A stretch of 35,319 nucleotides of DNA, from positions 1 through 35,319 of the forward strand of contig CAMCQH010000018.1 in the NCBI GenBank assembly GCA_945877035.1, in the 5' to 3' direction. The stretch's first letter is position 1. Each line of letters begins with the position of its first letter. The stretch is from an uncultured Clostridium sp. GTDB taxonomy: Bacteria > Bacillota > Clostridia > TANB77 > CAG-508. The notes under the pieces were generated by a model, which was not told where the DNA came from, did no database searches, and worked only from the letters and a program-made list of their open reading frames with translations. Below, piece by piece: positions 32,462 to 33,012 of this stretch. A program made the translations under genes and the position numbers.

Positions 32462-32575
32462 TGCAAAACTCCTTAAAATTTACTTTATTCAAGTATATTT
32501 TAGAGAGATCCCTTTTATTCACATTTATATAATTGTTATAATTTAAAACATTTTATATTAATTATGTTTGTTCGC

Positions 32576-32660
32576 TTGATTTTGAAGTAAAAATATTGTA
32601 ATATGTTAGCAACCTTACGCTAAGAAAGGCTAGCCCCTTCTAAAGGGCGGAAAGGGGGTT
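32576..32660 (+). promoter_or_regulatory. Promoter and folded leader of the 46-residue peptide gene
   Basis: TTGATT (32576-32581), a 17-base spacer and TAATAT (32599-32604). In the leader, CCCCTTC (32634-32640) can pair with GAAAGGGG (32650-32657), which is part of the ribosome site before the ATG, so the site is likely folded away. A competing pair GCCC/GGGC lies inside. Confidence 0.8.
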
Positions 32661-32801
32661 ATGATTTTGAATACTAGCGATCTAATTCTTCATTTAGTTG
32701 ATAAGTACATAGCTGAAAAAGAAAAAAACTTTATGTTACAACAAAAGTTAGAGCAACAAAATCAACAAATGCAAGATGACAACAAAGTTAAGACTATCTA
32801 G
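32661..32801 (+). CDS. 46-residue peptide of an antisense-controlled module
   Basis: ATG 32661 with AAAGGGGG 2 bases before it; TAG at 32799-32801. The N-terminal part (MILNTSDLILHLVDKYIAEK) is amphipathic and the rest is Gln/Lys-rich (LQQKLEQQNQQMQ), with a coiled-coil look. No membrane segment is strong enough to call. DRa (32667-32680) and DRb (32689-32696) lie inside the first 12 codons. Fst-type toxins from this kind of locus are hydrophobic with a charged tail, so this peptide is a different kind of product; function unknown. Confidence 0.75.
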   Translation: MILNTSDLILHLVDKYIAEKEKNFMLQQKLEQQNQQMQDDNKVKTI

Positions 32802-32921
32802 CAGTATTTAGTCGTAGAGCAGATTCGTGGTCTGCTCTATTTTTTTGCATAAAAAAGTATGTGCATTCGTGGTACACATACTGCTATGACTTGAATACTA
32901 GCGACATTCAAAGTTCATTTA
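32667..32921. repeat. Direct repeats DRa and DRb of the module
   Basis: DRa TTGAATACTAGCGA occurs exactly at 32667-32680 and at 32891-32904. DRb TTCATTTA occurs at 32689-32696 and 32914-32921, in the same order and at nearly the same distance. The left pair is at the 5' end of the peptide coding region and the right pair at the 5' end of the convergent RNA, so the two RNAs are complementary there. Confidence 0.9.
32815..32846 (+). terminator. Terminator of the peptide transcript
   Basis: TAGAGCAGA and TCTGCTCTA form a 9-bp stem around the loop TTCGTGG, followed by TTTTTTT. The loop sequence ATTCGTGGT (with flanking bases) recurs in the convergent terminator, so the loops of the two RNAs are complementary. 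Confidence 0.95.
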
Positions 32922-32927
32922 ATTTGT
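32850..32927 (-). ncRNA. Predicted convergent antisense RNA (RNA II-like)
   Basis: Transcript predicted from the promoter at 32934-32962 to a terminator made of GTATGTG (32857-32863) and CACATAC (32875-32881) with T6 on the - strand (32851-32856). Length is about 75 bases. It carries the complements of DRb and DRa and ends in a stem-loop whose loop (ACCACGAAT) complements the loop of the peptide transcript. Expected action: kissing through the loops, then pairing at DRa/DRb near the start codon to block translation, as in the pAD1 par locus. Existence of the RNA is inferred. Confidence 0.8.
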
Positions 32928-32933
32928 AACTTA

Positions 32934-32962
32934 ATAATAACACATTATTTTAAATTTGTCAA
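32934..32962 (-). promoter_or_regulatory. Promoter of the antisense RNA
   Basis: On the - strand TTGACA (32957-32962), a 17-base spacer and TATTAT (32934-32939): near-perfect and stronger than the opposing promoter. Confidence 0.9.
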
Positions 32963-33012
32963 ACACTTTTCAAAGCCATATTACAACATAATATATCAAA
33001 ATTTTAATATTA

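Follow-up and report, generated by a model that had tools for sequence, protein, structure and literature searches.

The locus at positions 32569-32963 of the window, by which we mean the whole stretch of 35,319 nucleotides from an uncultured Clostridium sp. that was analysed, probably belongs to a new family of compact, mobile modules that resemble type I toxin-antitoxin systems. Comparison of the copies revealed a conserved layout, covariation between the two predicted RNAs, coding selection on the peptide, movement of the module and one-sided losses. The sequence-only reading had proposed that a small peptide is encoded here under par-like antisense control and that the locus may form a new branch, and this was supported: the module has two terminators and complementary loops and is conserved as a unit.

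In the 395-base module, a promoter and leader precede a small open reading frame (ORF); two terminators that face each other follow, and the opposite strand carries another promoter. The convergent promoters, both terminators, the 14-base and 8-base repeats and the 9-base loop element described earlier were all found on the sequence, and their coordinates were confirmed. The predicted RNA I promoter (TTGATT-17-TAATAT, plus strand, 32576-32604; aligned in 39 modules) has its boxes at 32576-32581 and 32599-32604, separated by 17 bp, and is preceded by the family-conserved TGTTCGC at 32569-32575. A LexA box was considered for TGTTCGC and rejected, as only a half site was seen by eye. RNA I, the predicted peptide mRNA of about 236 nt, would run from 32611 to 32846 on the plus strand, with its ends placed by the -10 box and terminator I. 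It contains a leader structure (32613-32658, from fold and alignment) over the Shine-Dalgarno sequence GGAAAGGGGG (32649-32658, conserved in set A2), followed by the ORF for a 44-residue peptide with a TTG start (32667-32801) and by terminator I (32815-32846, arms 32815-32823 and 32831-32839).

On the minus strand, the predicted RNA II promoter (TTGACA-17-TATTAT, 32934-32962) has its TTGACA box as the complement of 32957-32962 and its TATTAT box as the complement of 32934-32939; TGTCAA is invariant in 40 aligned modules. The predicted antisense RNA II of about 80 nt would extend from about 32927 back to 32849, its ends being placed by the promoter and by terminator II (32851-32882, arms 32856-32863 and 32875-32882). 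The two terminator hairpins are 15 nt apart in the window and their T runs point toward each other. With these ends, the predicted RNAs do not overlap. RNA II is complementary to RNA I at two places. One is the start region, where the 14-mer TTGAATACTAGCGA (direct repeat a, supported by sequence and covariation) lies over the start codon in RNA I (32667-32680, plus strand) and recurs in RNA II (32891-32904, minus strand), as does the 8-mer TTCATTTA (direct repeat b, 32689-32696 on the plus and 32914-32921 on the minus strand), which was seen on the sequence and not scored apart from repeat a. The other is the terminator loop: the 9-mer ATTCGTGGT is present in both hairpins, at 32823-32831 and at 32865-32873, and the loop of terminator II is thereby complementary to that of RNA I.

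The folding of the RNA I leader was consistent in part with the stem that had been proposed over the ribosome site. The Shine-Dalgarno G run was paired in the minimum-energy fold of the window RNA I, and the inner leader hairpin showed compensatory changes in three of its four pairs. The outer family helix CCUU/AAGG (32613-32655), for which the window minimum-energy fold has the alternative of AGCCCCTT with the G run, was conserved, with 83.6% of cells paired compared with 44.5-71.1% in slid controls, but covariation was sought and absent, and the helix was no better than shuffled columns (83.5%). The 5' stem-loop predicted for RNA II (32890-32912, minus strand), whose loop displays the repeat a core, had a mean score of 16.3 in 40 modules versus 12.1 for shuffles. 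It was above the shuffle mean in 38 of the 40, and in 19 no more than 5 of 60 shuffles scored as high; the window's own stem-loop was moderate (7 of 60).

Covariation was analysed in 40 non-redundant modules with less than 90% identity. The loop windows were taken from alignment columns, and both terminator loops were found at aligned places in all 40. These windows replaced two hairpin-picking rules, an earlier one that found both terminators in 36/40 modules and a second one that failed in 5/40 and mispicked others (own mean 7.4 over 35). The two loops of one module share 6 to 10 letters with a mean of 7.85, versus 4.24 between modules, and the own 5' and 3' repeats scored 30.2 versus 14.4 (repeat b included with a), whereas the reversed control gave no signal (13.55 versus 13.33). 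The observed own means were reached by none of 20,000 permutations, for loops and repeats alike, nor by any of 20,000 permutations restricted to the three peptide subfamilies. When 14 more distant modules were analysed, the repeats scored 27.2 with their own partner versus 14.2 (0/20,000 permutations), and the own partner was best in 11. Among the 40 modules, the own partner was the row maximum in 27 for the loops and in 32 for the repeats; for the others, we read the rivals mostly as relatives with alike addresses. By manual count, the modules use about 17 different loop addresses, whereas they have a nearly constant terminator II stem. The loops and the repeats thus both covary from one copy to the next.

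The predicted 5'-arm duplex showed the same preference, with -33.9 kcal/mol for own and -16.8 kcal/mol for cross pairs in the 40 modules, and -42.0 kcal/mol in the window. The own duplex was the row minimum in 26 of the 40 modules. Within the window's genome it was best of its row in four of six modules, and the modules on contigs C19 and C1 have the same loop word. Insulation between the modules of this genome is incomplete.

The length of the peptide, given earlier as 46 residues, had to be revised. The in-frame ATG at 32661 that would give 46 residues lies only 2 nt past the GGGGG of the Shine-Dalgarno and is absent from several close relatives (e.g. L007, L025), and the TTG at 32667 aligns with the ATG of other subfamilies. 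The peptide therefore probably has 44 residues, and TTG 32667 is most likely the start in the window's subfamily. The family motif, approximately M-T/S/N-x-x-D/E-L-I-L-x-L-V-x-x-L-L-x-E-K/R, is kept across genera. Substitutions in three subfamilies indicate purifying selection on the peptide, with pN/pS values of 0.12, 0.22 and 0.51 for codons 2-7 and of 0.31, 0.38 and 0.48 beyond codon 7. A rule-based call found the ORF in 73 of the 75 full modules. It was shortened or broken in L009, G155 and L235 although RNA I and RNA II were retained. In L235 (G174:C19:19000-19772), an inversion in place seems to have affected the ORF tail together with terminator I.

The N-terminal helix had a hydrophobic moment of 0.50-0.73 over 11 residues in the 15 family peptides measured, of which the window peptide is the least hydrophobic. 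The latter is charged, amphipathic and glutamine-rich, and no transmembrane helix was found in it (best 15-residue Kyte-Doolittle mean 0.41). The more distant modules have the same RNA layout with mostly shorter peptides, some of them more hydrophobic, such as the 29-residue LIWRLIVLLLL-type peptides of L210, L215 and L216. With its amphipathic N-terminal helix and its hydrophobic relatives, the peptide, described earlier as hydrophilic and coiled-coil-like, is not simply hydrophilic. No relative that points to a toxin was found in Pfam, NCBIfam, PADLOC, PHROGs or the PDB sequences. The best Pfam matches were NUFIP1 (E 0.034-0.042; 14.4 bits at a cut-off of 23.3), Sas-6_C_CC (0.015) and MerR_2 (0.014 in 3 of 18 members). 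The best value was 0.022 in NCBIfam (set A1) and 2.7 in the PDB sequences, and neither PHROGs, searched with the window peptide, nor PADLOC, searched with set A5, gave a match. These matches were read as chance. Rfam yielded no matching family.

The distribution of the module was followed with DNA, peptide and RNA searches. The DNA search gave four matches in the window's own genome, including the window's module. At E 0.01 it matched 164 of the 194 genomes in the genus, and the weakest of these matches could be chance. The first 125 loci yielded 75 full modules distinct from one another. In the order, the peptide profile matched 81 of 287 genomes, the window's genome among them, and 16 of 45 genera; among the matches listed, every genome is from one family. 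At the class level, a second profile matched 5 of 391 genomes, namely that of the window, three more from its genus and another that was a chance match; under stricter filters, the RNA II model matched 3 of 291 genomes, all of the genus. G401, the sole match that fell outside the family, sits in a frame resembling that of an ATP synthase b subunit and was discounted as chance. Within one family of uncultured Clostridia, the module is common and present in multiple copies per genome. The 51 named stretches with the RNA II pattern are from metagenome assemblies of uncultured Clostridia, Clostridium or Eubacteriales, with two isolates named Chicken and ten named Lapin (rabbit). From these isolate names, the family apparently consists of animal-gut bacteria. 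Type I toxins are often found on phages and plasmids. The phage search gave no module (two matches of 9-11% coverage) and the plasmid search no match, and the exact RNA II pattern was not found in IMG/VR.

The window's genome has six modules, on contigs C18, C12, C10, C19, C1 and C9, and one lone RNA II on C10. Several module pairs are 96-99% identical between unrelated flanks. For example, the modules of L066 and L070 have an identity of 0.992, and their flanks of 0.56 and 0.48, where the random mean is 0.51. In such pairs, the shared part is bounded approximately by TGTTCGC and TTTGTCAAA, in some cases extended by a few tens of bases, and so comprises little beyond promoter to promoter. Other pairs have one or both flanks in common. 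The module moves as a cassette.

Several rearranged copies were observed. L041, L042 and L266 contain inserts of about 100-250 nt between terminators I and II, with TTGTATA/TATACAA-like ends seen by eye, and RNA I and RNA II are still separate units there. What is left of the module in L197, L200 and L258 is RNA II together with terminator I and the very end of the former peptide frame. These remnants stand behind other sequence, which in L197 and L200 is apparently another reading frame; terminator I may now end the RNA of that upstream gene. In L223 (G024:C33:2830-2900, minus strand), the conserved TGTTCGCTTG promoter and the leader start precede a different, strongly hydrophobic peptide of 35 residues, which may be a further type I toxin served by this kind of promoter. 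Its relative L222 (G055:C50) is without this ORF.

The losses of the two RNA genes were compared in 78 genomes with a model of the RNA I leader (R1) and a model of RNA II (R2). The tool drew 39 of these genomes as a first set; the other 39 were hand-picked for a match in the genus search and at least 90% completeness and are therefore not a random draw. The thresholds, E 3e-12 or better for R1 and 1e-10 or better for R2, were set after the first set had been seen, and pairing (same strand, within about 700 nt) was read by eye from the tables. After three matches each had been dropped at contig ends, 62 of 65 R1 and 87 of 90 R2 matches were kept, weaker R2 matches being left out; in six R2 cases (e.g. 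L225, L231, L232, L268), a weak R1 match, a peptide match or reading of the sequence was taken as sufficient for RNA I. RNA II adjoined 61 of the 62 strong RNA I leaders. The sole exception, L115, has lost the ORF and both terminators by a deletion spanning from one direct repeat to the other. In contrast, the RNA I gene was absent beside 20 of the 87 strong RNA II genes, and the sequence of all 20 was read; in one of them, L260, only the RNA I promoter and the leader start are left. Beyond these 20, the ORF is deleted in G155. The Fisher test gave p 9e-5 for 1/62 versus 20/87, p 5e-6 for 0/61 versus 21/87 when the scar L115 is excluded, and p 0.007 for the tool-drawn genomes alone (0/24 versus 9/34), values that are optimistic because the modules are related to one another. 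Homologous peptides without repeats and paired loops, which the sequence-only reading had named as evidence against it, were looked for, with the result that all leaders were paired except the ORF-less one. RNA I is thus rarely without RNA II, the pattern expected if the peptide is harmful or costly alone.

In L115 (G136:C35:1-300) and L112 (G121:C41), the direct repeats have apparently recombined; the promoters face each other and the ORF and terminators are gone. Lone RNA II genes were seen in L003 (G000:C10:3705-3853, minus strand), L263 (G163:C6), L059 and L060, and in the last three they adjoin another RNA II of a different address. The lone RNA II genes are candidate anti-addiction RNAs.

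The antisense control could also act on a non-toxic regulatory small protein, e.g. a coiled-coil partner, whose dose is tuned by RNA II. We regard this as rather unlikely. The charged, amphipathic and glutamine-rich window peptide without a transmembrane stretch would suit such a role, as would the lack of a toxin-pointing relative in the five libraries, but the unequal losses, the cassette movement, the several copies per genome and the hydrophobic relatives fit a toxin better. Even less probable is an RNA-only or repeat-like mobile element in which the ORF is incidental. Short, dispersed, near-identical copies at unrelated sites and the existence of lone RNA II copies would be expected of such an element, whereas the motif kept across genera, a pN/pS below 1 and an ORF in nearly all full modules speak against it.

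The type I reading is supported by the covariation, the duplex energies, the pN/pS values, the one-sided losses, the unrelated flanks and the hydrophobic relatives. It is weakened by the window peptide not being transmembrane, by own partners that are not always best, by the ORF-broken modules, by phage, plasmid and IMG/VR searches that gave no module and by the outer leader helix that lacks covariation. According to this type I reading, RNA I would carry the leader, a weak (TTG) start and the 44-residue peptide with its amphipathic N-terminal helix, and the antisense RNA of about 80 nt would be made in the opposite direction from its conserved promoter, each RNA ending at its own terminator. 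RNA II would pair with RNA I in trans. A loop-loop contact of the two terminator hairpins would likely come first and the repeat pairing second, by analogy with par; the 5' stem-loop of RNA II and the stretch of RNA I from the Shine-Dalgarno to about codon 6 would then form a long duplex that blocks ribosome binding. The variable loops and repeats would serve as addresses that match every antisense RNA with the mRNA of its own module. Without RNA II, the peptide would most likely be harmful, probably because its amphipathic helix acts at the membrane or through helix-helix binding.

The par locus of pAD1 is the closest in layout. Its pairing begins by loop contact and translation is blocked by repeat pairing (PMC7472228, PMC4147584); the first of these papers describes convergent RNAs, repeats over the start, complementary terminator loops and an RNA I of about 230 nt. 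The module shares with par/Fst the predicted convergent promoters for RNA I and RNA II (window, sets A2/A3) and direct repeats over the translation start that are read in opposite directions and covary (40 and 14 modules), and also complementary terminator loops and a similar RNA I length. A leader structure near the Shine-Dalgarno, a feature of par, is predicted for the module as well, with compensatory changes in the inner hairpin and no covariation in the outer helix. Unlike par with its one shared bidirectional terminator, it has two separate ones, so that its RNAs do not overlap; its loops stay complementary via covariation and those of par via overlap, and its RNA II of about 80 nt with its own predicted 5' stem-loop compares with about 40 nt in par. 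The peptides of Fst/Ldr have a transmembrane helix, a tryptophan, the P/D/S/T-x-x-x-G motif and a charged tail, whereas both W and G are absent from the window peptide, as is a transmembrane stretch. That the module is a diverged Fst/par member with the usual membrane toxin is hardly credible, since the par-like promoters, repeats spanning the start, loops and RNA I size (PMC7472228) are opposed by the two separate hairpins, the missing Fst/Ldr signature and the lack of an Rfam or Pfam family; membership was rejected on the shared terminator and the peptide signature, and the module, working like par yet failing these two defining features, was not filed under par.

As in type I systems in general, where the antitoxin RNA is complementary to the toxin mRNA, covariation and duplex energies point to complementarity of RNA II to RNA I. 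The type I pairs of Clostridioides difficile, e.g. CD0977.1-RCd11, are likewise from Clostridia and convergent, and their antitoxin is specific and able to act in trans (PMC7699646). The same paper describes their peptides as hydrophobic with lysine-rich, positively charged tails and as prophage-borne, unlike the different peptide of the module and its lack of a phage match. Type I toxins have been grouped into hydrophobic membrane toxins and two cytosolic nucleases, RalR and SymE (PMC8309996). The window peptide fits neither group well. A search of open-licence papers found no description of the module family. The trans-encoded shoB/ohsC and zor/orz of E. coli pair by short complementary stretches and their ends do not overlap, as in the module. 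We know of no paired direct repeats or covarying terminator loops in these systems, and the peptides of the module are unrelated to theirs.

More tentatively, the modules of this one family of Clostridia may represent an undescribed superfamily of mobile two-address RNA modules. Address changes would allow several copies to coexist within a cell, lone antisense RNAs that stay behind would give immunity against incoming copies, and the toxin would be a soluble amphipathic or coiled-coil peptide and not a membrane pore. The host bacteria are so far known from uncultured assemblies. Their dozens of natural antisense-mRNA pairs with two co-changing contact sites are a good data set on the specificity of RNA pairs. 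If the peptide is toxic, it would represent a new toxin class, and the lone antisense RNAs are suggested to be anti-addiction genes.
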